Origin: Actinomycetes bacterium
Lineage (GTDB): Bacteria; Actinomycetota; Acidimicrobiia; Acidimicrobiales; Bog-793
Direction of reading: 5' to 3'
DNA: 49,378 nt
Assembly: GCA_021809425.1 (NCBI GenBank)
Contig: JAKBAA010000014.1
Location: forward strand, 1-49,378
Made by a program: the position numbers and the translations under genes. Below the pieces are notes generated by a model that saw only the letters and a list, made by a program, of their open reading frames with translations, was not told the DNA's origin and did not search any database. Shown here piece by piece: positions 26,152 to 49,378 of the stretch. Position 1 is the first letter of the stretch. Every line of letters starts with the position of its first letter.

Positions 26152-26171
26152 TGGCTTCTCGTTACATCAAG

Positions 26172-26521
26172 TGGAGGTGGCGGGAATCGAACCCGCGTCC
26201 TTCAGCTTCTCGATGGGACTTCTCCGAGCGCAGCCGGCGGAAGGATCTCGGGTCCCGCCTCGCCACCGGCGTCGGCGCGGGACCCCAGCCAGCTGAGATT
26301 TCCCCTGTCAGCGCGCTGGCGTCATCGACAAGGTAAGCCCCACTAGATGTCGCCCGTGATCGGCCCGTGGGGCTGGGGCCGGACGAACGTTGCTGCTAGT
26401 TAGGCAGCAAGCGCGAGCTGAGGCTCGGCGTTTGTATTGGTTTCCGGCTCTTTAACGTGGTTCCGGAGACCACGGCTCGCTTCTCCCACCTCGACGACCG
26501 AAGTCGAAGCCAATCACCCCC
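26172..26521 (-). ncRNA. ssrA: transfer-messenger RNA (tmRNA)
   Basis: This 350-base one-piece tmRNA rescues stalled ribosomes together with SmpB. The 5' end (GGGGGTGATTGGCTTCGACTTCGG) and the 3' T arm with acceptor strand (GCGGGTTCGATTCCCGC then CACCTCC) are diagnostic. The first seven bases pair with CACCTCC with one G-U. The discriminator is A and CCA is not encoded, so it must be added after processing. The tag frame on the minus strand reads N-T-N-A-E-P-Q-L-A-L-A-A followed by TAA (26438 down to 26400), ending in the canonical ALAA degradation signal. The codon just before (26441-26439) is ACC, so the resume codon is not an obvious alanine. smpB lies 82 bases upstream on the same strand. 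Confidence 0.96.
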
Positions 26522-35342: not shown

Positions 35343-35384
35343 CTCATCTGGTAGTGGCCCCGTCCGACGCCACTACATCTTGTG
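35343..35384 (+). promoter_or_regulatory. pair of NrdR-like boxes upstream of nrdJ
   Basis: CACTACATCTTGTG (35371-35384) matches the NrdR box core CACTATATATAGTG at 11 of 14 positions. A second, inverted site at 35343-35357 keeps the CCACTAC half (on the minus strand) but is otherwise weak. Centre spacing is about 28 bases, slightly less than the roughly three helical turns usual for NrdR. NrdR is an ATP/dATP-sensing repressor of ribonucleotide reductase genes, so control of nrdJ is plausible. Confidence 0.5.
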
Positions 35385-35463
35385 CCCCCGCTCCAGGCGG
35401 GGCGCCGGCCAGGTCAGACGGGACGAACGGCGTCGGCGCGGCGCCGGAGGGAGGCACAGGGCG

Positions 35464-38259
35464 ATGGCGGTCACGAGCGAGCGGATCGACCTCGGGGTAC
35501 GTCGTCACTTCACGGTCGCCGGTCAGCATCCCTACGACGCCTTCTCGTGGGAGCGGCGCGACTCGCGCATCAGCGACTACCGCACCGGTGCGGTCGCCTT
35601 CGAGCAGCTCGGCGTCGAGGTGCCGGCCACCTGGAGCATGAACGCCACGAACATCCTCGCCCAGAAGTACTTCCGGGGCACCCTCGGCACCGCCGAGCGC
35701 GAGACGTCGCTGCGCCAGGTGGTCGATCGGGTCGTCGACACGATCACCGCCTGGGGGCTCCAGGACGGGTACTTCGCCGACGCCGCCGAGGCGTCGACCT
35801 TCAGCGACGAGCTGAAGTGGCTCATCGTGGCCCAGCGGGCGGCCTTCAACTCGCCGGTCTGGTTCAACATCGGCGTCCAGGGCGTCCCCCAGCAGGCCTC
35901 CGCCTGCTTCATCCTCGCCGTCGACGACTCGATGGACGCGATCCTCAACTGGTACGTCGAGGAGGGGACCATCTTCAAGGGCGGCTCGGGCTCGGGGGTG
36001 AACCTGTCCCGGATCCGCGGCTCACGTGAGCTGCTCCGCGGGGGCGGCACGGCATCGGGCCCGGTCAGCTTCATGCGCGGCGCCGACGCCTCGGCAGGCA
36101 CGATCAAGTCGGGCGGCAAGACCCGCCGGGCGGCGAAGATGGTCATCCTCGACGCCGACCACCCGGACGTGCGGGAGTTCGTCTGGTGCAAGGCGCGCGA
36201 GGAGCGCAAGGCCCGCGCCCTTGCTGCCTCCGGGTTCGACATGGACCTCGACGGCGTCGACAGCCACTCGGTGCAGTACCAGAACGCCAACAACTCGGTG
36301 CGGGTGAGCGACGAGTTCATGCGTGCCGTCCTCGAGGACCGCCCGTGGGACCTCGTGGCGCGGACGACGGGCGAGGCGATCGAGACGGTGCCTGCCCGGA
36401 CGCTGTTCCGTGAGATCGCCCAGGCGGCCTGGGAGTGCGCCGACCCGGGGCTCCAGTACGACACGACGATCAACCGGTGGCACACGGCGCCGAACACCGG
36501 TCGGATCACGGCGAGCAACCCGTGCAGCGAGTACGTCCACCTGGACAACAGCGCCTGCAACCTCGCCAGCCTGAACCTGCTGGCGTTCCTCGACGAGGCG
36601 GGCCACTTCGACGTCGAGGGGTTCAAGGCGGCCGTCCAGACCGTGCTGATCGCCCAGGAGATCCTCGTCGGCAACGCCGACTACCCGACCGACAAGATCG
36701 GCGAGACGACCCGCGCCTTCCGCCAGCTCGGCCTCGGCTACGCCAACCTCGGCGCCATGCTGATGGCGCTCGGGCTCGCCTACGACTCGGACGCCGCCCG
36801 CGCCCTCACGGCGGCGGTGACGGCGGTCATGACCGGTCACGCCTACGCCACCTCGGCACGCATGGCGGCCCGGATGGGGCCGTTCTCCGGCTTCCACGCG
36901 AATGCCGAGCCGATGACGGAGGTGCTCCGCATGCACCGACGGGCCACCTCGGAGATCGACGGGTCGCTCGTCCCGGCCGACCTCGTGACGGCCGCCCGGC
37001 GCGCCTGGGACGAGGCGGTCGAGCTCGGCGAGGTGCACGGTGTGCGCAACGCCCAGGCGACCGTGCTCGCACCGACCGGGACGATCAGCTTCCTGATGGA
37101 CTGCGACACGACCGGCATCGAGCCGGACCTCGGTCTCGTGAAGACGAAGAAGCTCGTCGGCGGCGGTACCATGTCGATCGTCAACCAGACGATCCCGCGG
37201 GCGCTTCGCCGCCTCGGCTACGGCGACGACCAGGTGGCCGAGATCGTGGCGTACATCGACGAGCACAAGTCGATCCTCGGCGCCCCGCACGTGCGGGCCG
37301 AGCACCTGCCCGTGTTCGCCTGCTCCATGGGCGACAACACGATCCACTACCTCGGCCACGTGAAGATGATGGCCGCTGCCCAGCCGTTCATCTCGGGCGC
37401 CATCTCGAAGACGGTCAACATGCCCGAGGACGTCACCGTCGAGGACGTCGAGCGCCTCCACATCGACGCCTGGCGGATGGGCCTCAAGGCCGTGGCCATC
37501 TACCGGGACAACTGCAAGGTCGCGCAGCCCCTCTCGACCACGAAGAAGGACGGCGCCGAGGCACCGTCGCCGGTCGCGACGGCAGAGGCCGACCAGCTGC
37601 GCTCCCGGGTTGCCGAGCTCGAAGCGCGTCTTGTCGACCACGTGCCGGCACCGGCGCCCACCTCCCGCACGCGCCTCCCGCGCCGCCGCCGCTCCAGCAC
37701 CTTCGCCTTCCGCGTCGCCGACTGCGAGGGCTACGTCACCGTCGGCGAGTACGAGGACGGCCGCCCGGGCGAGGTGTTCATGAAGGTGTCCAAGCAGGGC
37801 TCCACCCTTTCGGGCGTGATGGACGCCTTCTCGATCGCCGTCAGCCTCGGCCTGCAGCACGGCGTCCCGCTGTCGACGTTCGTGCGCAAGTACACCAACA
37901 TGCGCTTCGAGCCCGCCGGCATCACCGACGACGCCGACCTGCGCCTCGCCTCGAGCCTCGTCGACTACATCTTCCGCCGCCTCGCCCTCGACTACCTGAG
38001 CGAGGACGAGCGGATCGAGCTCGGCGTGCTGTCGACGGGGGAGCGGACCCAGCAGACCCTTCCCGGCCTCGAGGACATCGCCCTCGGCAGTGCCGCCCGG
38101 GAGGACGGCGAGCGCTTCGGCGAGGGTGGCGACGCCGCCGTGGCGCCCGCCGCCGAGAGCCGGGACGCCCCGTTCTGCTACGCCTGCGGCAACGTCATGC
38201 AGCGTGCCGGCTCCTGCTACGCCTGCCCGAGCTGTGGGGCGACGAGCGGCTGCTCGTAG
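35464..38259 (+). CDS. nrdJ: adenosylcobalamin-dependent (class II) ribonucleotide reductase
   Basis: This 931-residue B12-dependent enzyme reduces ribonucleotides to deoxyribonucleotides without oxygen-dependent radical generation. Domain features in order: NSPVWFNIGVQG, ACFILAVDDSMDAI, KGGSGSGVNLSRIRG, the finger-loop region with NPCSEYVHLDNSACNLASLNL (active-site Asn/Cys/Glu), APTGTISFLMDCDTTGIEP, then a TSCPD-type domain (VADCEGYVTVGEYEDGRPGEVFMKV) and a C-terminal cysteine cluster (CYACGNVMQRAGSCYACPSCG) that re-reduces the active site. ATG 35464 is chosen because MAVTSERIDLGVRRHFT is family-like; the upstream in-frame start at 35380 would begin inside the NrdR box. I saw no cobalamin riboswitch element. 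Confidence 0.96.
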   Translation: MAVTSERIDLGVRRHFTVAGQHPYDAFSWERRDSRISDYRTGAVAFEQLGVEVPATWSMNATNILAQKYFRGTLGTAERETSLRQVVDRVVDTITAWGLQDGYFADAAEASTFSDELKWLIVAQRAAFNSPVWFNIGVQGVPQQASACFILAVDDSMDAILNWYVEEGTIFKGGSGSGVNLSRIRGSRELLRGGGTASGPVSFMRGADASAGTIKSGGKTRRAAKMVILDADHPDVREFVWCKAREERKARALAASGFDMDLDGVDSHSVQYQNANNSVRVSDEFMRAVLEDRPWDLVARTTGEAIETVPARTLFREIAQAAWECADPGLQYDTTINRWHTAPNTGRITASNPCSEYVHLDNSACNLASLNLLAFLDEAGHFDVEGFKAAVQTVLIAQEILVGNADYPTDKIGETTRAFRQLGLGYANLGAMLMALGLAYDSDAARALTAAVTAVMTGHAYATSARMAARMGPFSGFHANAEPMTEVLRMHRRATSEIDGSLVPADLVTAARRAWDEAVELGEVHGVRNAQATVLAPTGTISFLMDCDTTGIEPDLGLVKTKKLVGGGTMSIVNQTIPRALRRLGYGDDQVAEIVAYIDEHKSILGAPHVRAEHLPVFACSMGDNTIHYLGHVKMMAAAQPFISGAISKTVNMPEDVTVEDVERLHIDAWRMGLKAVAIYRDNCKVAQPLSTTKKDGAEAPSPVATAEADQLRSRVAELEARLVDHVPAPAPTSRTRLPRRRRSSTFAFRVADCEGYVTVGEYEDGRPGEVFMKVSKQGSTLSGVMDAFSIAVSLGLQHGVPLSTFVRKYTNMRFEPAGITDDADLRLASSLVDYIFRRLALDYLSEDERIELGVLSTGERTQQTLPGLEDIALGSAAREDGERFGEGGDAAVAPAAESRDAPFCYACGNVMQRAGSCYACPSCGATSGCS

Positions 38260-38274
38260 CGCAAGGTCGCACCG

Positions 38275-39672
38275 CTACGCCGAGGCGTCGACCGTTGCGC
38301 CGTCCGTGTGCGTCGACACTCGGTAGGTGCTGCGCGCATAGGCGTCGTACGGCGCAGGTGCCACCGTCGCCCGCAGCGCCACCTGCACGTGGGGCTCTAT
38401 CGCCGGCTTGGAGGAGTTCGGCCGCTCGCCCCACAGAACCTGCACCTCGGCGCCGGTCGCCGCGTGCTCCGTCTCGACGGCCGCGAGCGACACGAAGGCC
38501 TTCTCGTTGTAGATGTAGCCGCAGTCGAGCGAGATGCCGATCGGCGTACCGTCCAGGTCGAGGACCTGGTCGACCTGGTACAGCGCATAACGGGACTTCG
38601 GCCACTCCATGAACTTGGCTGACAGCTCTGGCCCGAGCTGGCTGAGCATCGCGTTCGCGACGTCGTCGCGGTTCCAGACGAGCGTGACCTTCTGGCGTGA
38701 CGGTCGCTCGGCGAGCCGCTGCAGCGCTTCCCGACCCGGGAACTCGTGATCGAAGGCCACGATCGGCCCGTACCCGAGATCAAACGGGGTGACGTAGAAG
38801 TCCTCGATATTGGACGAGACGAAGCTGCCCCCGAGTGCGCCAGCATGCTCCGCCGGGCACCAGGAACGGAAGGCCTCCATCCCCTCGCCGCTGAAGATGG
38901 CCGGAAGCGGTGACGGGATCCAGCCGGACTCGAGGTTCGCCGTGGCGTACGCCCTCGAGCCGGCCGGCAGGATGCCGTGCTCGGAGCCCGCCTCGAGGAT
39001 CGCGGCGCGTACAGCCTCGCCGTTCTCGTACGGGCCGAACAGTTCGAAGCCCGGCTGCCCTGCCATGCCGTGGCGTAGGGCCCGAACCTCCAACCCGGCG
39101 ATCCGAAAGCGGGTCATGTGGAAGAACCGCACCTCAGGCACGGTGTGCCCACTGGCCGTTTCGAGGATCTTCGCGGCGGACGGCCCCTGCACCTCGAACC
39201 GAAACAGCTTGGGCGGGCCCGAGCGTGCGAACGAGTTCTCGTCCCGCTCGATGCTCACGTCGTAGCCGCCGGTCGCCGCATGGTACTGCACCCAGTCCAC
39301 GACGAGGGACGAAGGGCTCACGAAGTCGAGCTCGTCCTCGGCCAGGAAGAAGAGGATGCCGTCACCGACGAGATATCCCTCGTGATTGGTCAGCACGAGC
39401 TGCTTCGCAACGTCCGGGCGGAAGCGGGAGAAGTTGTTGGCCCCGAGCTCCGCGAAGACTCGAAGCGCATCCGAGCCCCTGATGAAGAGATCGGTCATGT
39501 GGTGCGACTGGTCGAGCAGCGATGCCGTCTCACGCCACGCGCGCTGCTCCGAGCGCCAGTTGCTGAACTCGGGCTTCACCGGGAACTGATAGGGCAGGGC
39601 GGGGTTGTTCCTCAGGTATTCGACGGCGCCACCTGCTCCTGCGACGGCGTCCTGCAGACTCTTCGTGCTCAC
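38275..39672 (-). CDS. LigM/DesA-type tetrahydrofolate-dependent aryl O-demethylase
   Basis: This 465-residue GcvT-fold protein belongs to the aromatic O-demethylase branch, which moves a methyl group from an aryl methyl ether to tetrahydrofolate. Signature blocks are KPEFSNWRSEQRAWRETASLLDQSHHMTDLFIRG (residues 33-66), YLVGDGILFFLAEDEL, VQYHAATGGYDV, RHGMAGQPGFELFGPYE (200-216), LESGWIPSPLPAIFSGE (247-263), GGSFVSSNIEDFYVTPFDLGYGP and the closing VLWGE and EPHVQVALRATVAPAPYD. These blocks line up with LigM (3-O-methylgallate/vanillate) and DesA (syringate). The exact methoxy substrate is unknown. It is the last gene of the minus-strand catabolic cluster, 159 bases after the GMC oxidase, and ends 15 bases from the nrdJ stop. 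Confidence 0.88.
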   Translation of the reverse strand: MSTKSLQDAVAGAGGAVEYLRNNPALPYQFPVKPEFSNWRSEQRAWRETASLLDQSHHMTDLFIRGSDALRVFAELGANNFSRFRPDVAKQLVLTNHEGYLVGDGILFFLAEDELDFVSPSSLVVDWVQYHAATGGYDVSIERDENSFARSGPPKLFRFEVQGPSAAKILETASGHTVPEVRFFHMTRFRIAGLEVRALRHGMAGQPGFELFGPYENGEAVRAAILEAGSEHGILPAGSRAYATANLESGWIPSPLPAIFSGEGMEAFRSWCPAEHAGALGGSFVSSNIEDFYVTPFDLGYGPIVAFDHEFPGREALQRLAERPSRQKVTLVWNRDDVANAMLSQLGPELSAKFMEWPKSRYALYQVDQVLDLDGTPIGISLDCGYIYNEKAFVSLAAVETEHAATGAEVQVLWGERPNSSKPAIEPHVQVALRATVAPAPYDAYARSTYRVSTHTDGATVDASA

Positions 39673-39831
39673 GCTTCCTCCACCTCTCGGTCATTGCCGG
39701 ATCGCGACGGCGCGCTGACGCGCAACGCCGTGACCACGGTGCTCGAATGCTTGGTGCGCGCTCCGCCGCTCACCACGGCGGCATGCCTCCACGGGGCGCT
39801 CGCCTCCGCGGATCTGCAGCGCCTCGTGCTT

Positions 39832-41499
39832 CTACGAGCCGCTTGTCCTGTGGCCACCACCGGCGACGTGCTCGCACGCCCGCGCCGTCAACGCCATGAT
39901 GGTCAGCGTCGGTCCCACGGCACCGGTCGACACGAAGGAGCTCGCGTCCGTCACGTAGAGGTTCGGGACCTCCCAGGCCTGGTTCCACGCGTTCAGAACG
40001 GACTTCATCGGATCGCTCCCCATGCGTGCACCACCGCACTCATGGATGGCGGCGCCCATCGCGAGGCTCTTCCGGAAGGCGAGCCGGAAGACGATGCGGC
40101 TCAGAGGATCGGCGTCCGGCCACACGTCCTTCGAGTCGAGCCCGAGCGCCGAGCCTACGAAGTTGACCCGATAGCCGCAGGCTTCGGACATCGCGCGAAG
40201 CCCGGCGACCTGTGCGTGCATCTGGGAGCGCTCCTCGTCAGTGATCGCCAACCGGACCCGAGGAATCGGAACGCCCCAGCGGTCCCGGCGCGACGCATGC
40301 AGCGTGATCCGGTTGTCGAAGTACGGGCGCATGGCGCCGAACCCCATGAGCCCCACAATGCCTCCGTGGCTCGACGGCACCGGAAGGCGGCCGATCGTGC
40401 CCTGGACCGCCCAGCCGTGCGGCGCGTCTCCCCCGGGGCCCCTCTGGTCTCCCTGGACCTGGGGAAGGTACACGCCGCCGATCGGCGCGTAGTACGGGTC
40501 GGGCGGGGCCGGGTCGGCACTCTCGAAGCCCGGATGCGCAGGGTCCTCGCCGAACAGAAGGCTCGGGGTCTGGTCCATGAAGTAGCGACCGAGCAGTCCT
40601 GAGCCGTTGGCGAGGCCGTTCGGGTGCCCGGAGCACTTCGAGTTGAGGAGCACACGGACCGACTCGATCGTCGAAGCGCACAGCATCACGACCCCACCGA
40701 AGGCACGATGCTCCCTTCGCGACAGGCGGTCGACGAAGACCACACCGTCGGCACGACCAACCTGCTCGTTCATCGTCACCCGCCTCACGACGGCATCGGT
40801 GCGCAACGTGAGACGGCCTGTCCGACGGGCCGCCACGATCCCGAGCGGAACTCGCTCGAGGTTGGGCGCGGCGTACCGCCACGGGATCACGCGACGGCTC
40901 GGCCAGCGCGCCTCGATGCCTGACTTGAATGCCTTCTCCGCCTCGGTCAGGAGCGACGGGCCGCGGTAGACGCCGTCCGGCAGGTTCGGCAATTGCTCCT
41001 CGGTCCCGTAGACCCCGAGGAAGCGCTCGACGCGGTCGTAGTACGGGGCGAGGTCCGCGTACGAGATGGGCCAGTCGACGCCGCCAGGCTCGTGCCCGGC
41101 ACCCTTGAAGTCGATGTCCGAGGCCCGGAGCAGCACCCTCCCGTAGGAGTGCAGCCGACCACCGAGCTGGCGACCACGGATCCAGAGGAAGTCATTGCCA
41201 TCCACGACGTAGGGATGCTCCCAGTCGTTGACGAGAAACGGGCTCGTCTGATCCTTGAACATCGCGCGGCGAGCCTGGACGTACTGGCCCCGGAGACTCG
41301 CGCGCAACCGACCCCCGAGGTTGATGCTCATTGCCGTTGGTGCCGCCGGCGTCGGCGGCACGAAATCCGCCTCCTGCAGGTCTCGGCCGGCCTCGAGCAG
41401 CAGCACGTCGAGCCCCCGTTCGGTGAGCTCCTTGACCGCGATGCTGCCGGCAGCGCCGGATCCGACGACGATGGCGTCGTATCGCTTCTCATAATTCAT
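39832..41499 (-). CDS. GMC-family FAD-dependent oxidoreductase (candidate glycoside 3-oxidase)
   Basis: This 555-residue flavoenzyme has the FAD-binding VVGSGAAGS near residue 12, LLEAG, the GRQLGGRLHSYGRVLLRASDIDF segment, the second dinucleotide strand LCASTIESVRVLLNS, and a C-terminal GMC block: IHECGGARMG (His486), VPNLYVTDASSF and GPTLTIMALTARA. The His is kept but the Asn usual before PTLT is Gly here. The family contains pyranose/glycoside oxidases and dehydrogenases, including CarA, which oxidises C-glycosides at C3. Because the C-glycoside deglycosidase-like genes follow in the cluster, 3-oxidation of a glycoside is the best guess. ATG 41499 is used; an upstream ATG at 41553 adds a non-conserved basic stretch. 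Confidence 0.85.
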   Translation of the reverse strand: MNYEKRYDAIVVGSGAAGSIAVKELTERGLDVLLLEAGRDLQEADFVPPTPAAPTAMSINLGGRLRASLRGQYVQARRAMFKDQTSPFLVNDWEHPYVVDGNDFLWIRGRQLGGRLHSYGRVLLRASDIDFKGAGHEPGGVDWPISYADLAPYYDRVERFLGVYGTEEQLPNLPDGVYRGPSLLTEAEKAFKSGIEARWPSRRVIPWRYAAPNLERVPLGIVAARRTGRLTLRTDAVVRRVTMNEQVGRADGVVFVDRLSRREHRAFGGVVMLCASTIESVRVLLNSKCSGHPNGLANGSGLLGRYFMDQTPSLLFGEDPAHPGFESADPAPPDPYYAPIGGVYLPQVQGDQRGPGGDAPHGWAVQGTIGRLPVPSSHGGIVGLMGFGAMRPYFDNRITLHASRRDRWGVPIPRVRLAITDEERSQMHAQVAGLRAMSEACGYRVNFVGSALGLDSKDVWPDADPLSRIVFRLAFRKSLAMGAAIHECGGARMGSDPMKSVLNAWNQAWEVPNLYVTDASSFVSTGAVGPTLTIMALTARACEHVAGGGHRTSGS

Positions 41500-41615
41500 C
41501 TTCTCACGACCGCCTCGCCGTCTCCCTGCGATGCGTGGTCGCCGGCAGTCCACCTGCCGACGACCACGTCATCGGATTGATCCCTTGCTCGCTGGACGCT
41601 CTGGAGCGGGTTCGC

Positions 41616-42653
41616 TCAGCAGCTGCCGGTATAGATGTAGGGACGGCTTGTAGCGGCGTTGACGTTCGCGCGCGTGAGCAGCATCTGTGGGACACCAATG
41701 AACTGCTTGAGCACGGGCACTCGCCCGCTCCGTCCCGAGCGGAGGTAGTCCACGAGGGCCTTCACCTGATTCGCGCCGATCTCGCGTGGAGACTGCGCAA
41801 CGAGCGCAGTGATGGTCCCGCTCTTCAGCGCGGCGACCTCTGCCGGCGTGGCGTCGAGCGCCACGACGGTGACCTTTCCAGCCTTGCCGGCTTGCTGTAC
41901 CGCTGCCGCCGCGGCCTGCCCGTCCGGACCGTCCGCGGCCACGACGAGCTTCAGGTCTGGATGCGAGATCAGAAGCGAGGCAACCGCCGAGGTCGCCTTG
42001 TTCACGTCGAACCCGCTGTAGATCGTAGGCAGCGAGGTCAGCTTGGGGTTCGCTGCCGCCAATGCCTTCACCACCGGGTTGAGCCGCTCGTCCACGGGGA
42101 CAAGCCCGGGAATGCCGTTCACCACGACCATCGACCCGGCCCCCTTTGGCGCAAGGGGCGTGAGCTGCTTCAGGAAGGAAAGCTGACGGAACTTGGTACC
42201 GACCACCTGGTATTGCGCTCGGGGAGCGGTCGAGTTGATCGTGACGACGGGCACGCCCTTTGCCATGAGCGAACGGTACTGAGCCAGGAACTGGTTCGGA
42301 TTCTCCGGGTCGACGAAGATGCCGCTCGGGCTCGTTAGCGTGGCCGTCGAGAAGAGCTGCGAGAATGTCGCAGCGTCGCCGGCCGTCGACGAGTATGCCT
42401 TGTACTGCACGCCGAGCCTTGCGGCCTCCTGCTTGGCGCCGCAGCCGAGCGTCTGCCAGAACGGGTCGTACGTCAGCCCGTACACGCCAGCAATGCTGAT
42501 GTTGCTGGCTCTCGCCGTCGCGCGCGCAGGCACCGCGGCAGCCGACTCGGCTCGCCGGACACTTCCCCCCGCCGCCTGCGAACCTACCGCCACGAGTGTC
42601 AGCGGCAGCGCCGTCGCGACCACACCACGTCGCAACGTTACGGACTTCTTCAT
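41616..42653 (-). CDS. sugar ABC transporter substrate-binding protein (RbsB-type)
   Basis: This 345-residue secreted protein starts with a signal sequence (KKSVTLRRGVVATALPLTLVAVGSQAAGG). The mature part is a type I periplasmic-binding fold: ISIAGVYGLTYDPFWQTLGCGAKQEAARLGVQYKAYS, GIFVDPENPNQF, GVPVVTINSTAP, VVVNGIPG, LKLVVAADGPDGQAAAAAVQQAGKAGKVTVVALDATPAEVAALKSGTITALVAQSPREIGANQ. This is the ribose-binding branch (Peripla_BP_4). No lipobox is clear. The matching permease and ATPase genes lie upstream in the same cluster. It presumably binds the imported glycoside outside the membrane. Confidence 0.92.
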   Translation of the reverse strand: MKKSVTLRRGVVATALPLTLVAVGSQAAGGSVRRAESAAAVPARATARASNISIAGVYGLTYDPFWQTLGCGAKQEAARLGVQYKAYSSTAGDAATFSQLFSTATLTSPSGIFVDPENPNQFLAQYRSLMAKGVPVVTINSTAPRAQYQVVGTKFRQLSFLKQLTPLAPKGAGSMVVVNGIPGLVPVDERLNPVVKALAAANPKLTSLPTIYSGFDVNKATSAVASLLISHPDLKLVVAADGPDGQAAAAAVQQAGKAGKVTVVALDATPAEVAALKSGTITALVAQSPREIGANQVKALVDYLRSGRSGRVPVLKQFIGVPQMLLTRANVNAATSRPYIYTGSC

Positions 42654-42731
42654 GTCATTCTCCCCTCAGTGGTTGGGCCACGCTGTTTCGTCGCGTCGCC
42701 AACAAGATGTCAACTGCATGGATGTGCATTG

Positions 42732-43745
42732 TCACGCCAACGGCGAGCTCCCCTGGGCGAACGCAGCGTCGAAGCGGGTCGAGGCCGGAGCAAGCACCTG
42801 TGCACGCACGAAGCCGAGCGCCTCGGGCGCTCCCTGCAGGCGATCCATGCCCGCGTCCTCCCATTCCACCGAGATCGGCCCGGAGTAGCCGATGGCGTTC
42901 ATGGCACGAAAGCAAGCGCCCCAGGGCACGTCGCCCCGCCCCACGGAGACGAAGTCCCAGCCACGGCGTCGATCCGCCCAGGCGAGGTGGGAGGAAAGGC
43001 GGCCGTTCCGCCCGTTGCCGAGGTTGAGCTTTGTGTCCTTGCAGTCGACGTGGTAAATGCGATCGGCGAAGTCGAACAGGAAGTCGGCGGGATCGACCTC
43101 TTGCCAGAGCATGTGGCTCGGGTCCCAGTTGAGGCCGAACGCCGCTCTCCGGTCGATTGCCTCGAGGGCGCGCACGGTCGTCCAGTAGTCGTAGGCAATC
43201 TCGCTCGGGTGCACCTCGAGGGCGAAGCGGACGCCGACCTCGTCGAAGACGTCCAAGATCGGATGCCAGCGGCGGGCGAAGTCTGCGAACCCCTCGGCAA
43301 CCATCTCCTCGGTGACGGGTGGGAACATGGCCACGAGCTTCCAGATCGAGGAGCCGGTGAAGCCCACCACGACGTCGACACCGAGGCGGGCCGCGAACCT
43401 GGCCGTTGCCTTCATCTCCTCGGCGGCGCGTTGGCGTACGCCCTCCGGCTCGCCGTCCCCCCAGATCCGTGGCGGCAGGATCGACTGGTGGCGCGCGTCG
43501 ATGGGGTCATCACAGACCGCCTGTCCGACGAGGTGGTTCGAGATGGCCCACACCCCTAGGCCGTGGCGCCCGAGGATCTCCCTCCGCCCTGCGACGTAGG
43601 CGTCGTCGTTCCAGCGCGTGACGTCGAGGTGGTCACCCCAGCATGCGAGCTCGAGCCCGTCGTAACCCCACCCAGCCGCGCGGCGGGCCACCTCCTCGAG
43701 CGGTAGGTCGGTCCATTGCCCCGTAAAGAGCGTGATCGGGCGCAT
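42732..43745 (-). CDS. sugar phosphate isomerase/epimerase-like TIM-barrel enzyme
   Basis: This 337-residue enzyme of the AP-endonuclease-2/xylose-isomerase-like superfamily has a first strand [33 protein letters not shown]. The usual divalent metal ligands are visible: Glu177 (FALEVHPSE), Asp208 and His211 (NWDPSHMLW), His232/Asp234 (HVDCKDTKL) and Glu294 (SVEWEDAG). All ligands are intact, so it should be active. The substrate is unknown; in this cluster an isomerase or hydratase step on a keto-sugar is plausible. ATG 43745 is the start; an ORF start at 43826 would overlap the upstream gene and add non-conserved residues. It is distinct from the second TIM barrel at 45016. Confidence 0.87.
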
Positions 43746-43822
43746 GCTCCACTCTCCTTGGGAGACGGTCGCTGCTGTGGCCGTCAGAGCGCTTGGCGGA
43801 GCTGGCGACGGCGGGGGCTTCG

Positions 43823-45019
43823 TCATACGCAGTCCTCGCGCGCGACGATGGTCACGAAGGCTGCACCTGGCACCTCGAGGGTCGCCAGCTGGCGCAGGGC
43901 CCCGTCGTGTGCATCGATGGCGTAGGAGCGCAGCTCGCCGGCCGGTCGGTCAGCCACGAGAAGCAACGATCCGGCGGGATCGATCGCAAAGCTCCTGGCG
44001 GCGACGCCGGGGTGTGCCGACGGCGCCAGTGCAACCGCTCCCGACCTGCACAGCCCCACACCGTCGTCGTCCCGAAACCAGATAAGCATGTCCTCGCCCC
44101 GGTTGTTGACGTAGATCGTTCGCCCGTCGGGGTGGACGCGTACCTCCGCCGGCTCGTTGACCCGGTCGACCGGCCGATCGAGCGTGGAGACCCGGTCGAG
44201 CAGGGTGAGCTGTCCGGTCGTGGCGTCGAAGGCGACCGTTGCCAGCTCCGAGGAGAGCTCGCAGGTCACATAGGCAAGCGCACCCTTCGGATCGAAGGCG
44301 AGATGGCGCGGCGCGGTCTCGGCCGGAAGGCGGAAGCTCGAGACGAGCGTTCCTGGCCGATCGAGCGCGAGCACGAGGATCTGGTCGGTTCCCTTGTCGC
44401 AGACGAGGACGTAGCGCTCGCTCGGGTCCACGACCGCGCAGTGCGCGTGCGGGCTCGCTTGGCAGTGTCCGCCGGCCTGTGGGGATCGGTTCGGATCACG
44501 CCCCGAGCCTGAGAGCACCAGGACGTCAACCACCTGGTCGAGGCTTCCGTCCCTGCCGACCCCGATGGTGGTGACCGTAGAGTCGTCATAGAGGTAATCG
44601 ACTCCCCAGGCTCCGGCGCCGTCGGTGGTAACGCGTTCGACGTGCGCGAAGCTTCCGTGGCTTGCGCAGAGCAACAGGTGGTGGCGCTCGTTGTAGGAGA
44701 GGTAGGTGGGAAAGGGACCGGGGATGGGCAAGGACCCTCGCCACTCGAGATCCCCGCTGTGCGGATCGGCCGCGAGGGCATGGATCGCCGCCCGCGGACC
44801 AACCGGACCGCGCCCGTCGGTCTTTCGCTCGTCCACGGCGTAGAGGGTGCTCGTCCGAGCCGCCCAGACGAGATAGCCCGCCTGGCCAGGACGCTCGGCG
44901 TGGCTCTGGAGCTGCAGCGCCCCATCGGGCCGGAGGGCGACGACGTCGATCCCACCGTCGGTCTCCTCGGCGTCGCTCGCGTAGCGCCCGACGTAGGCGA
45001 GCAGGGGAGCGGACGTCAA
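43823..45019 (-). CDS. lactonase-family seven-bladed beta-propeller protein
   Basis: This 398-residue protein has the repeated blade pattern of the 6-phosphogluconolactonase/YkgB beta-propeller family: [129 protein letters not shown] and [25 protein letters not shown]. There is no signal peptide, so it acts in the cytosol. The family opens sugar lactones; here a glucono-type lactone or an aromatic lactone of the substrate is possible, but neither can be chosen. Its ATG overlaps the stop of the 45016 gene by 4 bases. Confidence 0.85.
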
Positions 45020-46182
45020 CGGTCGCCCCCGGCGGCCGGGGCGACTCCGGCTTCGGTCGGGCGGTCGAGCAGGCGGCGGAGCATGGCCTGGTGGCGCCGT
45101 ACCTGCTCCACCTCGTCGGCCAGCTCCGCCCGAGTGCGGTCCTGGAAGTACCGCTGCCCCTCGTACTCGGAGTTGACATAGCCGTCGAAGCCACCCCGGA
45201 CGAGCGCTCCAATGCCTCCCTCGTAGTCGATGGAGATGTCGTCGTAGTCACCCGGAGCGCCGGGCACGGCGGTCATGTTGTAGAACTTGCCGTGCGCGTG
45301 CACGACGTACGGGGCGAGCTCCTGGAGGTGCTCCGGGCGGGTACCGGAGAGCATGAGGGCCTCGGCGACGACCGTGTGATCGAGCTCAGACGGGTCGGGG
45401 ACCTGCGCCTCGGCGAAGGCTTTGACGCTCGAGAACAGCGGTAGCAGCTCGGGCTCGCATTCGCCCGTGCGGAGCCAGCGAGTCAGGTCGCTCCGCAGGT
45501 TGCCCGCGGTTCGGTAGGCCATCTCGGGGAGCGGGAAGGGAGCCGCTCCGTTGCGGATCAGAAGCGCGAGGGCGACGGAGGCCTCACATGCCTCCGGCTT
45601 CGCCCCCCGGCGCTGGAACCAGTCGAGAAGGACCTCGGACGGGCGGAACTGCAAGATGCCGAAGTCGGGCACGATGCCAAGGTGCCGGGTCCCTGTGCGG
45701 TCGACGAAGGCCACGATCTCCTCGACCTGGCCGCCGTCGAGCGGCATCGGCTGGTGGATCTCCTTGCCGAGCCGGATGTCGAGCGACTCCGCCAGCGGAA
45801 GCGCTGCGAGCATGACCTCGAGCGGCACGACCGAGATGCAGCGAACGATCCGAAAGCCCAAGGTGTGCGCAAGCTGGAGGTCGTGTCGCAGGCGATCGGC
45901 GCACTCGTCGTAGCTCATGACGTGGTCACGGAACTGGAGCACGTCCATGCTCACGTCGAGCGCGACCGGCACCGTGGCGTAGCGTTCCATCCACTGGTGC
46001 CACTGGCGCACGAAGGCCGCATCCGGATCGGGGTAGGGAAACGAGAGCTCGTCGATCGTCTCGATGCCGTCGGCGCCCGGGAGGTTCTCCGCAACCTCTC
46101 GCAGCTGATCCTCGAGGAGGAGCTCTTTGAAGAACTGCGCCTGCTGGTAGCTGTAGAGCGAGACGCCGCGGCGGATCGTCAT
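45016..46182 (-). CDS. C-glycoside deglycosidase alpha-like TIM-barrel subunit
   Basis: This 388-residue protein starts MTIRRGVSLYSYQQAQFF, the typical start of the alpha subunit of C-glycoside deglycosidases (DgpB/CarB type). Candidate Mn ligands and catalytic residues are Glu141 and His143 (GKEIHQPMP), Asp173 (IVPDFGI), His295/His297 (VVHAHGKF) and Glu339 (NSEYEGQ). The next upstream gene encodes a DUF6379 protein, the known beta subunit, and their stop and start share one base, so translation is coupled. These enzymes break the C-C (and sometimes C-O) glycosidic bond of 3-keto-glycosides. Substrate range is not readable. ATG 46182 is the start; the long ORF beyond it is antisense noise. 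Confidence 0.85.
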   Translation of the reverse strand: MTIRRGVSLYSYQQAQFFKELLLEDQLREVAENLPGADGIETIDELSFPYPDPDAAFVRQWHQWMERYATVPVALDVSMDVLQFRDHVMSYDECADRLRHDLQLAHTLGFRIVRCISVVPLEVMLAALPLAESLDIRLGKEIHQPMPLDGGQVEEIVAFVDRTGTRHLGIVPDFGILQFRPSEVLLDWFQRRGAKPEACEASVALALLIRNGAAPFPLPEMAYRTAGNLRSDLTRWLRTGECEPELLPLFSSVKAFAEAQVPDPSELDHTVVAEALMLSGTRPEHLQELAPYVVHAHGKFYNMTAVPGAPGDYDDISIDYEGGIGALVRGGFDGYVNSEYEGQRYFQDRTRAELADEVEQVRRHQAMLRRLLDRPTEAGVAPAAGGDR

Positions 46183-46649
46183 CAGTCCGAGCCCTTCTCG
46201 GTCAGCGCCACCTCGTAGGTGACGATGTGCGGGGACTTCTCCGAGCCGGCGCCAGAGCCGGGCCTCGGTGGATTGCGGACCCACTCCTCGTCGGTCGGCT
46301 GGTAGCCGTAGGCCGCAAGGACGGACTGCTGGAAGCGGATCCGATGCCACCCCGGCGTGAGCCCGCCCGGGAGACCCACGTGCAGGATCGCCTCGTCGTC
46401 GAAGTCCCAGTGCTCCCAGACCGCGCCGCGCAGCTCCTCGAAGGTCCGCGGCCCTCGCCCGTTGATCTCGAAGGTCTGGGCCTCGACCGGGTACTCCACA
46501 TCGTCGACGGCGAGGTAGTAGCCGTTGTGGAGCGAGAGATAGACCCCGCGGTAGTTGGCGTTGCGCACCGCCAGGGTGAACCCGATGACGTGGCCGCCTC
46601 GACACTCGTTCCGCAGGCTGTCCTCGCGGATGAGGAAGTTCTCGAACAT
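46182..46649 (-). CDS. C-glycoside deglycosidase beta subunit (DUF6379)
   Basis: This 155-residue beta-sandwich protein begins MFENFLIREDSLRNECRGGHVIGFTLAVRNANYRGVYLSLHNGYYLAVD and contains VEAQTFEINGRGPRTFEEL, matching the DUF6379/C-glycoside deglycosidase beta subunit (DgpC/CarC type). In described enzymes this small subunit assembles with the TIM-barrel alpha subunit and is required for activity. Directly downstream, sharing one base, is the alpha-like gene. Upstream by 8 bases is the ABC permease gene, so transport and cleavage are encoded together. The pairing with the correct alpha partner makes this call stronger than its small size suggests. Confidence 0.88.
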   Translation of the reverse strand: MFENFLIREDSLRNECRGGHVIGFTLAVRNANYRGVYLSLHNGYYLAVDDVEYPVEAQTFEINGRGPRTFEELRGAVWEHWDFDDEAILHVGLPGGLTPGWHRIRFQQSVLAAYGYQPTDEEWVRNPPRPGSGAGSEKSPHIVTYEVALTEKGSD

Positions 46650-46657
46650 CGTCCCAC

Positions 46658-47728
46658 CTATCCCTGTTCGCGCCGCTGGACCGTGAAGCGGTCGAGGCCG
46701 ACGGCCAAGATGAGGGCCCCGCCGACCGCCATCAGCTGGTAGTAGGACGAGACGCCGATCACTACGAGACCGCCCTGAAGGATGACTGCGAGGGCCGTTC
46801 CCCAGACGGCCCCGGGGATCGAGACACGTCCACCCTCGAGGAGGGTTCCGCCGATCACGGCGGCGGTGACCGCGTTGAGCGCATCGTTGGCGTGGCCATT
46901 GACGACCGTGCTCCCGTAGTGGGAGATGTCGATGAAGCCAGCGATCCCGGCGAACGTCCCGGCAAGGGCGGCGAGCGCGACGATGTAGCGCGTCACACGG
47001 ATGCCTGCCCGGCTCGCCGCGACCCTGGAGGACCCGATCGCAAGGGTGCGCGTGCCGAAGCGCGTGAACCGGACGGAGAGCCATGCCACCGCTGCGACCG
47101 CAAGGGCGACGAGCGCGGGAAGGGGGATGGGTCCGACCGTCCGCAGGCCGAAGCTCTGCTGGAGTGGGGTCGGTAGGCCCGCCACATCGCTGCCGTTCGT
47201 GACAACATAGGCGATCCCCATCCCGATCCCGAGCGTGCCGAGCGTGGCGATGAGCGAGTTGATCCGGGCGTAGGCGATGAGCGACCCATTGACGAGCCCG
47301 AACAGCGCCCCCGTGGCGAGTGCACCGCCGACGCCTGCGAGCGCCGCGACGCCGACGTGGGTGGCGGTGCCGTTCGGCCCGGTTATGGCGAGGGCGTTGA
47401 TGATCTTTGCGCCGACCACGGAGCTCAGCACGAGGTTCGCGCCGAGCGACAGGTCGAAGATGCCGGCGCCGAGCATCAGCGAGAGGCCGACTGCGAGCAA
47501 GAGCGCCTCGGTCCCGGCGAGCAACAGGGCCTTCACGTCCGCGAGCGAGGCAAAGACGCCGTGCGACGAGAGCACCGTGAAGACGATGAACAACAACACG
47601 TCGAGCAGGAAGATGGCCGAAGCTCGCGTGGCGAGCAGCTCCCTCCAGCGGCTACGGGGAACCGCTCTTGTGTCGACCTCGTTGGAGAGGCTGTCGCGTG
47701 CCTCGGCGACGGCGGCATCGACCATCAC
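46658..47728 (-). CDS. sugar ABC transporter permease (RbsC-type)
   Basis: This 356-residue membrane protein has about nine to ten hydrophobic segments and the RbsC pattern: ALLLAVGLSLMLGAGIFDLSLGANLVLSSVVGAKI, GLVNGSLIAYARINSLIATLGTLGIGMGIAYVVTNG, RFTRFGTRTLAIGSSRVAASRAGIRV (the cytoplasmic coupling loop) and AVTAAVIGGTLLEGGRVSIPGAVWGTALAVILQGGLV. It is the only permease in the window, so it probably works as a homodimer. Its start ATG overlaps the ATPase stop by 4 bases, and DUF6379 follows after 8 bases. The first or second Met could be the start. Confidence 0.93.
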   Translation of the reverse strand: MMVDAAVAEARDSLSNEVDTRAVPRSRWRELLATRASAIFLLDVLLFIVFTVLSSHGVFASLADVKALLLAGTEALLLAVGLSLMLGAGIFDLSLGANLVLSSVVGAKIINALAITGPNGTATHVGVAALAGVGGALATGALFGLVNGSLIAYARINSLIATLGTLGIGMGIAYVVTNGSDVAGLPTPLQQSFGLRTVGPIPLPALVALAVAAVAWLSVRFTRFGTRTLAIGSSRVAASRAGIRVTRYIVALAALAGTFAGIAGFIDISHYGSTVVNGHANDALNAVTAAVIGGTLLEGGRVSIPGAVWGTALAVILQGGLVVIGVSSYYQLMAVGGALILAVGLDRFTVQRREQG

Positions 47729-48543
47729 TCGTGCGCCTCCTGCCGGTAACCGACCATGGTCGCGACGACGTCAGGGACGGTCAGCCCCTTCGACGGCACG
47801 TCGAGGACGGTCGCTCCGCGCCACAGCACCACCACCCGGTCGGCGATGGAGAGGATCCTCGGGAGGTCGTGGGAGACCACCACCACGCCGAGGCCACGGC
47901 TTGCGACCGTCCGGATGAGCTCACAGACCTTCTCGGACTGTCTCGCCCCGAGGGCAGCGGTGGGCTCGTCCATCAAGAGGGCGGCGCTCGACCACATGAC
48001 CGCTCGCGCGACCGCCACCGCCTGGCGCTGTCCGCCGGAGAGGTCCCGCACGGGCACGCGCAACGACGGCAGGGAGATCGAGAGCTCACGAAGCGCCGCC
48101 TCGGTCTGTTCGGCCATGCGGCGGCGGTCGAGCGCGCCGACGGCGCGCAGCGAGCGACGTCGAAGCACCTCGTGACCGAGGAACATGTTGTCGATGACGC
48201 TGAGGTCCGGCGCGAGCGAGAGATCCTGGTGGACGGTGTCGACGCCAAGGCGTTGCGCGTCGCGCACGGAGCTCAGCGCGACCTGCGCGTTGTTGACGAC
48301 GATGCGGCCGCTGTCGGGCCGGTAGATCCCCTGCAGGACGCGAAGGAAGGTCGACTTTCCTGCTCCGTTGTCGCCGAACAGTGCGACGACCTCTCCGAAG
48401 GACGCCTGCAGCGAAGCGTCCCGAAGCGCCTCGACGTGGCCGAAGTGCTTGCGAACGTGCTCAGCCGCGATGGCGACGCCTGCCGAGCGCTGGTCGACGT
48501 CCGCCATCGCATCGCTCGCTCGTGCGTCATTGGCTGGGGTCAT
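47725..48543 (-). CDS. sugar ABC transporter ATP-binding protein (single-domain)
   Basis: This 272-residue ATPase has Walker A GDNGAGKST (57-65), a Q-loop (VDTVHQDLSL), the signature LSGGQRQ (168-174) and Walker B ALLMDEP (188-194), followed by the switch histidine (VVVVSHDL). Many ribose/xylose-type importers use a double-length ATPase; this is a single domain like XylG/FrcA-type short members. It overlaps the dehydrogenase stop by 4 bases and the permease start by 4 bases, so translation is coupled through this set. It powers uptake of the cluster's substrate. Confidence 0.93.
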   Translation of the reverse strand: MTPANDARASDAMADVDQRSAGVAIAAEHVRKHFGHVEALRDASLQASFGEVVALFGDNGAGKSTFLRVLQGIYRPDSGRIVVNNAQVALSSVRDAQRLGVDTVHQDLSLAPDLSVIDNMFLGHEVLRRRSLRAVGALDRRRMAEQTEAALRELSISLPSLRVPVRDLSGGQRQAVAVARAVMWSSAALLMDEPTAALGARQSEKVCELIRTVASRGLGVVVVSHDLPRILSIADRVVVLWRGATVLDVPSKGLTVPDVVATMVGYRQEAHE

Positions 48544-49378
48544 CGGGTCGGCACGTCCACCCAGGCCTGCCGCGACGCGGAAGCGATCACGGCCTCGGTG
48601 AGGATGGCGGCGCGAAGGCCGTCGGCGAAGGTTGGAAGGCCCGCAGGCGTGTGCCCTCCGATCGCCCGGTAGGTATCGTCGACGAAGGCGTTGAAGCAGT
48701 CCTGGTAGCCCTGTGGATGCCCGGCGGGCACACGGTCGTAGATCGCACCCGCCGTCTCGGCGCTGGCACCGCGAGGAACGACGATGGTGTGCTCGCGCGT
48801 GCCGACGACGAGGTGTTCGGGGCGCTCCTGGTCGAAGGCGACGGACTGCTCGGTTCCATCGACCGAGAGCCAGAGGCGATTCTTGCGACCTGGCGACGCC
48901 TGGCTGACGACGACCGAGCCAATGGCGTGCTCGTCGGTCTCGAATTGGACCACGGCACGATCCTCGTTGACGGCTCCGACCCTGGACTCGCCCCGTTGGT
49001 CGTACACCCTCGACAGCTGGGCGCTGACGCGGACGATGCGCTGCCCGGTCACGAACTCCGCGAGATCACACCAGTGCACACCGATGTCGGCGAACGCCCC
49101 GGAAGGACCACCGAGCTTCGGGTCCATGCGCCAATTGTCGTCGCCCGCGCTCGAGAGCCAGTCCTGCAGGTACGAGCCGTGGACCGAGTGGATGCGTCCG
49201 GCTCGACCGTCGACCACACGCTGCCGGGCGTCGCGGACGGTGGGGTAGTAGCGGTAGACAAAGGGAACGGTGTGCACGACGCCGGCCCCGACCGCCGCCT
49301 CGATCATCGTCCGTGCTGTGGCGAGGTCCGTGGCAAGGGGCTTCTCGCAGACGACGTGCTTGCCGGCGCGGAACGCGG
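48540..49378 (-). CDS. Gfo/Idh/MocA-family NAD(P)-dependent oxidoreductase, 5' end beyond window
   Basis: About 279 codons of the C-terminal part are in the window; the Rossmann N-terminus is cut off by the right edge. The visible part begins with AGKHVVCEKPLATD, the EKP motif of the family, then VPFVYRYYPTVRDARQRV, SWLSSAGDDNWRMDPKLGGPSGAFADIGVHWCDLAEFVTGQ (with the catalytic GxxxDxGxHxxD segment) and a beta-rich C-terminal domain. Family members oxidise sugar or inositol hydroxyls; DgpA of C-glycoside pathways belongs here. A role in 3-oxidation or reduction of the keto-sugar is inference. Its stop overlaps the ATPase start by 4 bases. Confidence 0.9.
   Translation of the reverse strand, partial: AFRAGKHVVCEKPLATDLATARTMIEAAVGAGVVHTVPFVYRYYPTVRDARQRVVDGRAGRIHSVHGSYLQDWLSSAGDDNWRMDPKLGGPSGAFADIGVHWCDLAEFVTGQRIVRVSAQLSRVYDQRGESRVGAVNEDRAVVQFETDEHAIGSVVVSQASPGRKNRLWLSVDGTEQSVAFDQERPEHLVVGTREHTIVVPRGASAETAGAIYDRVPAGHPQGYQDCFNAFVDDTYRAIGGHTPAGLPTFADGLRAAILTEAVIASASRQAWVDVPTR

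Follow-up and report, generated by a model that had tools for sequence, protein, structure and literature searches.

A predicted aryl C-glucoside operon in an acidimicrobial genome, with bergenin as its candidate substrate

C-glycosides resist ordinary glycosidases. The bacterial enzymes described for their cleavage (DgpABC, CarABC, AgCGD) combine a deglycosidase alpha subunit (CGDA) and beta subunit (CGDB) with a partner oxidoreductase. They have been published for soil bacteria, Microbacterium among them, and their homologues are known from Actinobacteria, Proteobacteria and Firmicutes (PMC8563793). Operons such as those of Agrobacterium tumefaciens and Bacillus smithii are predicted to work by oxidation, elimination, hydration and reduction, with a Gfo enzyme turning 3-keto-glucose into glucose (PMC10628242). 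Here we analyse a ten-gene cluster in a contig of 49,378 nucleotides (JAKBAA010000014.1, assembly GCA_021809425.1, an Actinomycetes bacterium of the Acidimicrobiales lineage Bog-793), which is referred to below, at its full length, as the window. The cluster shares with DgpABC, CarABC and AgCGD the CGDA/CGDB pair, the metal site, the His base, the fold and the partner oxidoreductase (PMC8563793), but its CGDA is only 20-32% identical to the solved ones, its GMC oxidoreductase is not nearest to the C-glycoside oxidases, and it adds a lactonase, a hydratase, an ABC (ATP-binding cassette) importer and an O-demethylase. With the A. tumefaciens and B. smithii operons it has the four-step logic, the hydratase and the Gfo reductase in common, whereas the enzyme of A. 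tumefaciens is an O-glycoside eliminase (OGE) that is unrelated in sequence and has no beta subunit, and the parts of that report covered here describe no lactonase or demethylase (PMC10628242). The syringate and gallate catabolism of Sphingobium and Novosphingobium (DesA, LigM, gallate dioxygenase) relies on the same family of demethylases and likewise cleaves the gallate ring; here, however, these are tied to a glycoside-cleaving operon, and bergenin as substrate would put the methoxyl group in the para position.

The route of oxidation, beta-elimination, hydration and reduction is thus known chemistry, and the original prediction, that no description of the complete combination exists, was too strong for this core, for which four-step operons have been published (PMC10628242). 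The combination with lactonase, demethylase and gallate genes is not described in the literature covered. What is new is a deglycosidase subfamily that occurs in several phyla, is linked to a propeller lactonase and is often accompanied by O-demethylases and gallate-type ring cleavage genes.

The deglycosidase pair and its linkage to a lactonase

The genes for the alpha TIM barrel and for DUF6379 adjoin, as expected of C-glycoside deglycosidases. DUF6379 is now the Pfam family CGDB, the C-glycoside deglycosidase beta subunit, and the protein also matches DfgB (1.8e-11) and DgpB (8.4e-8) in the PDB. The pair had been proposed before as a deglycosidase, which is borne out, but the subunits have to be exchanged: DUF6379 is of the DgpB/CarC type and hence beta, the TIM barrel of the DgpC/CarB type and hence alpha. 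The metal and catalytic residues of AgCGD2 are Glu147, His149, Asp179, His269, Lys271, Glu305 and Glu307 (PMC8563793). Alignment of our CGDA to the AgCGD2 alpha chain (7dnm) pairs these, in order, with E141, H143, D173, H297, K299, E339 and E341, so that a loss of the metal/His residues, which would have spoken against a deglycosidase, is not seen. All seven are present in 44 of 44 CGDA sequences (the window's and 43 homologues of at least 300 bits with no internal stop) and are invariant in a separate alignment of 36 rows. The predicted CGDA model (predicted local distance difference test score, pLDDT, 91.6) found only C-deglycosidases at Foldseek PDB ranks 1-16; from rank 17 the matches drop to generic isomerases. 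Together, sequence and model identify the predicted core of the operon as a C-glycoside deglycosidase, and we assign the pathway to C-glycoside catabolism with high confidence. The CGDA subfamily itself is without a close solved relative.

The neighbourhoods of related genes were surveyed in named genomes; of 138 relatives found there, 80 were retained. The subfamily comprises 44 loci of at least 47% identity (L015-L055, i.e., 41 loci, and the plasmid loci L005-L007), which by our own judgement fall into a non-Firmicute group of 27 and a Firmicute-type group of 17, the latter from 16 Firmicutes and one metagenome-assembled genome (MAG) of a Spirochaete. Seven hand-picked loci with other deglycosidases served as controls (L111-L115, which are five of the 19 plasmid hits H5-H23; L008, which is hit H4; and L004). 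Flanks were 15 kb for L005-L007 and 10-12 kb for most other loci, and several contigs were short, so that, where genes are absent, the counts are lower bounds. Actinobacterial carriers include Streptomyces, Nocardia, Amycolatopsis, Actinomycetospora, Sinomonas and Cellulomonas; further carriers are Novosphingobium, Sphingobium, Caballeronia, Erwinia, Vibrio, Rubellimicrobium, an Anaerolineales MAG and many gut Firmicutes.

A homologue of the propeller lactonase occurs in 26 of the 27 non-Firmicute loci and in none of the seven controls (Fisher p 1.5e-6; like all such values below, this treats the loci as independent although they share descent). It directly follows CGDA in 26 of the 44 loci, 22 of them non-Firmicute. 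Gfo, GMC and hydratase genes recur in 22, 21 and 20 of the 27 non-Firmicute loci, respectively. In the Firmicute-type loci a propeller is present in five (L036, L042, L047, L048, L052) and an amidohydrolase in six (L007, where it belongs to PF04909, L045, L046, L049, L051, L055), never together, and neither is found in the remaining six. The two may possibly be non-orthologous lactonases that replace each other in these loci. Neither type appears in the table of cluster homologues for the 39 next-nearest loci (L056-L094), and the two SMP-30/gluconolactonase-type genes of control L008 belong to a different family from the propeller. A peptidase-S15-type hydrolase, considered as a third alternative, was dropped because it occurs in one of 85 loci searched (L041). 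Two side observations concern individual loci: in Enterobacter sp. EA-1 (L043, 3600-14000) several cluster genes match only as separate fragments, which looks like gene breakage or poor sequence quality, and an alphaproteobacterial MAG (L037, 4800-7543) carries a tandem second CGDB-CGDA pair with a window-like ABC transporter.

Oxidoreductases, hydratase, transport and aglycone genes

The GMC protein carries both family domains above their cut-offs (24.6 bits for PF05199, 23 bits for PF00732). In a Foldseek comparison with the PDB, CarA-type C-glycoside oxidases are not its closest solved relatives. With a predicted model of pLDDT only 76, the best nine fold matches are fructose dehydrogenase (FDH) and FAD (flavin adenine dinucleotide) glucose dehydrogenase (FAD-GDH), followed by C-glycoside and pyranose oxidases, the C-glycoside oxidoreductases standing at ranks 10 (8qve) and 12 (7dve). 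The catalytic His486 is kept, but the position of its Asn partner is Gly529 in all 21 sequences of the GMC subfamily, none of which has the classical His-Asn (or His-His) pair, whereas Asn occupies this position in eight of eight GMC enzymes of different types encoded in deglycosidase loci. GMC genes are also found in all seven control loci. We regard the enzyme as a probable glycoside 3-oxidoreductase from its linkage, namely its presence in 21 of the 27 clusters and the occurrence of this GMC type, at 66% identity, next to another kind of deglycosidase pair in G004, a genome of the same family (L004, 749-5467). That locus also has a gene that, by reading, we take for a P450.

The second TIM barrel is recognisable as a homologue, over most of its length, of 2-hydroxy-3-keto-glucal hydratase (8ro4), sited in an eliminase operon. 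Homologues occur in three of the seven controls and, at the bit cut-off, in none of the 17 Firmicute-type loci. The possibility that it is a second deglycosidase is ruled out by its best solved relatives, 2zds and the keto-glucal hydratase. PDB entry 2zds, to which it is very close, bears the name putative DNA-binding protein and is probably misnamed. The evidence for the hydratase is termed preliminary by its authors (PMC10628242). The likely role of the Gfo enzyme is reduction of 3-keto-glucose to glucose, oxidation of the glycoside, or both; a levoglucosan pathway was rejected since the enzyme's top NCBIfam match, levoglucosan dehydrogenase, reaches just 134 of 650 bits. A glucokinase is annotated beside the Gfo and hydratase genes in L006, with glucokinase homologues in L028, L033 and L043, so that glucose seems to be the sugar end product in these four loci, which would leave no need for a sugar-lactone step.

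Window-like ABC parts were found in three loci (L018, L037, L038), with ATPases 72-80% and permeases 53-65% identical to those of the window, while a major facilitator superfamily carrier occurs instead of or besides ABC in 19 of the 27.

The O-demethylase is homologous to LigM (5tl4) over residues 4-451 and thus belongs to the GcvT-like tetrahydrofolate O-demethylase family, but it falls short of both NCBIfam equivalog cut-offs (DesA 547 bits, cut-off 800; LigM 514, cut-off 580). Elsewhere in the host genome there are a gallate dioxygenase (765 bits, cut-off 412), an oxalomesaconate tautomerase (534, cut-off 440) and an aldolase (362, cut-off 179), as well as a protocatechuate-dioxygenase-type beta subunit; a search for a glyoxalase-fold gallate-type dioxygenase in the host gave just a 26% match, and this candidate was rejected. 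In Novosphingobium resinovorum (plasmid pSA2) an annotated gallate dioxygenase, an oxalomesaconate tautomerase and ligK lie within ~15 kb of the cluster, which is also near a VanB-type reductase and a Rieske oxygenase. Rubellimicrobium and Actinomycetospora have a glyoxalase-fold extradiol dioxygenase, a tautomerase and a LigK-like aldolase by the cluster. O-demethylase genes accompany 12 of the 27 non-Firmicute loci (DesA-like in seven, Rieske in five) and none of the seven controls (p 0.036). A cobalamin-type demethylase was considered for the gut loci and rejected: the sole B12 protein among ten scanned, which are a minority of the gut-locus genes, is of the methionine-synthase type.

Gene order and genome setting

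The open reading frames, Pfam and NCBIfam confirm ten minus-strand genes of the families named before, several of them overlapping, at 38275-49378 (Table 1; overlaps Gfo/ATPase 48540-48543, ATPase/permease 47725, CGDB/CGDA 46182, CGDA/lactonase 45016-45019), and these ten genes are one catabolic operon. All ten genes are real, but the Gfo gene is cut by the end of the contig, its N-terminus being encoded on contig C20 (1-381, minus strand), of which bases 1-126 are identical to a block of the window that ends 17 bases short of the window's end. Beyond this N-terminus C20 carries a divergently transcribed ROK-family gene (PF00480, 2.2e-51). The window is the entire contig (C155 in our numbering) in a host genome of 3.55 Mb and 179 contigs. 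The GC content is 0.67-0.69 across the cluster against 0.71-0.79 in the first 33 kb of the window, and, of 59 other relatives, G004 alone has CGDB, which is also absent from all 295 other members of the host's class that were drawn. The deviating GC content and this rarity fit a horizontal gain of the cluster. A long open reading frame at 35380-38259, which by reading we take for a B12-type ribonucleotide reductase, converges on the 3' end of the operon, and a transfer-messenger RNA (tmRNA) gene lies farther off at 26171-26521.

Table 1. Genes of the cluster in operon order, with the matches on which their assignment is based.
Feature	Position	Strand	Evidence
Gfo/Idh/MocA oxidoreductase, C-terminal part	48540..49378	-	PF22725 1.9e-26, PF02894 4.2e-16
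Sugar-type ABC ATPase, single domain, RbsA-like	47725..48543	-	PF00005 5.4e-29
ABC permease, RbsC/AraH type	46658..47725	-	PF02653 3.9e-26
CGDB (DUF6379), deglycosidase beta subunit	46182..46649	-	PF19906 1e-31
CGDA, deglycosidase alpha subunit, TIM barrel + helical insert	45016..46182	-	PDB 8qvc 6.5e-49
Seven-bladed propeller lactonase	43823..45019	-	PF10282 7.6e-62
Second TIM barrel, 2-hydroxy-3-keto-glucal hydratase homologue	42732..43745	-	PDB 2zds 5.2e-152, 8ro4 6.6e-37
Sugar-type substrate-binding protein	41616..42653	-	PF13407 4.6e-39; signal-like N-terminus by eye
GMC oxidoreductase	39832..41499	-	PF05199 1.5e-22 (81.1 bits), PF00732 8.5e-6 (26.2 bits)
Tetrahydrofolate-type aryl O-demethylase, DesA/LigM family	38275..39672	-	PDB LigM 5tl4 2.7e-141

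The proposed substrate and its alternatives

Bergenin, a widely prescribed plant C-glucoside, is called the simplest structure among the lactone-containing C-glycosides; it is made from gallic acid by 4-O-methylation, C-2 glucosylation and closure of a lactone ring between the carboxyl group and the 2-OH of the sugar (PMC10794647). A lactonase, a C-deglycosidase, an O-demethylase and a gallate dioxygenase mirror these steps in reverse, and the host genome holds lactonase, deglycosidase, demethylase-family and gallate-pathway genes together. Since a lactone, a C-glucoside, an O-methyl group and gallate together point to bergenin, we propose, with little more than even confidence, that the operon serves the uptake and complete catabolism of a gallate-like aryl C-glucoside with a lactone and a methoxyl group, most likely bergenin itself. 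The published C-deglycosidase mechanism uses an ortho-OH (PMC8563793), which bergenin has according to our reading of its structure. According to published docking, the metal binds the 3-keto group while an active-site acid bonds to the free 2-OH (PMC10628242), and for this reason it makes sense that the lactone would be opened first. Bergenin is not converted by a gut strain that was the source of a cloned dgpA (PMC10772555), although the DgpA of this strain oxidises it (PMC11239390), which would fit an additional requirement, for instance that the lactone be opened. Among the matches listed in our limited literature searches there was no bacterial pathway, or genes, for bergenin degradation.

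We infer the order of the steps, the substrate, the target of the lactonase, the position that is demethylated and the regulation, whereas the gene families, the active-site residues of the deglycosidase and the conserved linkage are read from the sequences. The ABC system would import the intact glycoside, and the lactonase would open the ester that joins the ring carboxyl to the 2-OH of the sugar. The GMC enzyme would then oxidise C3 of the sugar, after which CGDA/CGDB would take the C2 proton and eliminate the aryl group, yielding 4-O-methylgallate and 2-hydroxy-3-keto-glucal. The second TIM barrel would hydrate the glucal to 3-keto-glucose, which the Gfo enzyme would reduce to glucose, while the DesA/LigM-type enzyme would demethylate the aglycone to gallate, to be degraded through the gallate dioxygenase pathway of the genome. 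The divergent ROK-family gene may act as a regulator of the operon. Compared with the original prediction, uptake, oxidation, the deglycosidase pair and demethylation are supported, while the second TIM barrel, the kinship of the GMC enzyme and the role of the lactonase are revised: the last had been assigned to the handling of keto-sugar but seems better placed on the lactone of the substrate.

Several observations weigh against bergenin. The characterised DesA and LigM enzymes act on vanillate, syringate and 3-methylgallate, i.e., on meta-methoxyl groups (PMC8091115), unlike the para-methoxyl of bergenin. The gallate genes of the host lie on contigs other than that of the operon, and the genome has three further DesA-like genes, so that the host may degrade methoxylated aromatics generally. 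Those relatives of the propeller that have been solved carry the names phosphogluconolactonase or gluconolactonase, and its family includes sugar-lactone hydrolases, as does PF04909. The lactonase matches of L034 and L037 are distant (43% and 33%) and away from CGDA, and that of L043 is in separate pieces. The enrichment of aglycone genes over the controls, apart from the shared descent mentioned above, is weak for demethylases and not significant for ring-cleavage genes (ten of the 27 non-Firmicute loci against one of seven controls, p 0.38) or for either kind (14 of 27, p 0.10). Thirteen of the 27 have no aglycone gene in the available stretch, and among the 17 Firmicute-type loci demethylase homologues are absent and ring genes occur in one only (L036).

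The same four-step route may act on another aryl C-glucoside of the flavone, xanthone or anthraquinone type, with the lactonase working on a sugar lactone or a ring-fission lactone. Characterised deglycosidases accept such substrates (PMC8563793), and the names of the propeller's solved relatives agree with a sugar lactone; we nevertheless consider this unlikely, as the propeller is missing from all seven loci with other deglycosidases, the glucokinase in four loci suggests glucose as the sugar product, and gallate genes are not expected for flavones. Less likely again is that the same eliminase cleaves a methoxylated phenolic acid bearing an O-linked glucose, for example glucosyl-syringate or glucosyl-vanillate, with the demethylase and the gallate pathway acting on syringate or vanillate. 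For such substrates a beta-glucosidase alone would suffice, and the conserved lactonase would be left unexplained, even though the DesA/LigM family demethylates both acids (PMC6888825, PMC8091115) and 3-keto O-glucosides are also among the substrates of a C-glycoside eliminase (PMC10628242). The least likely of the readings considered is that the demethylase, and perhaps the GMC enzyme, are mere neighbours of a general glycoside eliminase operon. A gap of 159 bp precedes the demethylase gene, the three other DesA-like genes lie elsewhere in the host genome, and 15 of the 27 loci are without a demethylase in view; DesA-like genes, however, recur by the cluster in five genera (Amycolatopsis, Sinomonas, Stakelama, Novosphingobium, Rubellimicrobium), and Rieske oxygenases in five other loci.

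If bergenin is the substrate, the cluster could be part of the first gene-level pathway that mineralises bergenin-like galloyl C-glucosides. We suggest this tentatively and with somewhat less than even credence: it would be a horizontally spread, multi-phylum module in which the lactonase frees the 2-OH for the eliminase and para-O-demethylation to gallate follows, with a short form in gut Firmicutes, where an amidohydrolase can replace the propeller. The hydratase homology suggests a function for the 2zds protein, and a specific substrate prediction becomes directly testable through the cluster, in named cultured strains and with single genes. Bergenin as substrate would also offer a reason why the lactonase travels with this deglycosidase subfamily.

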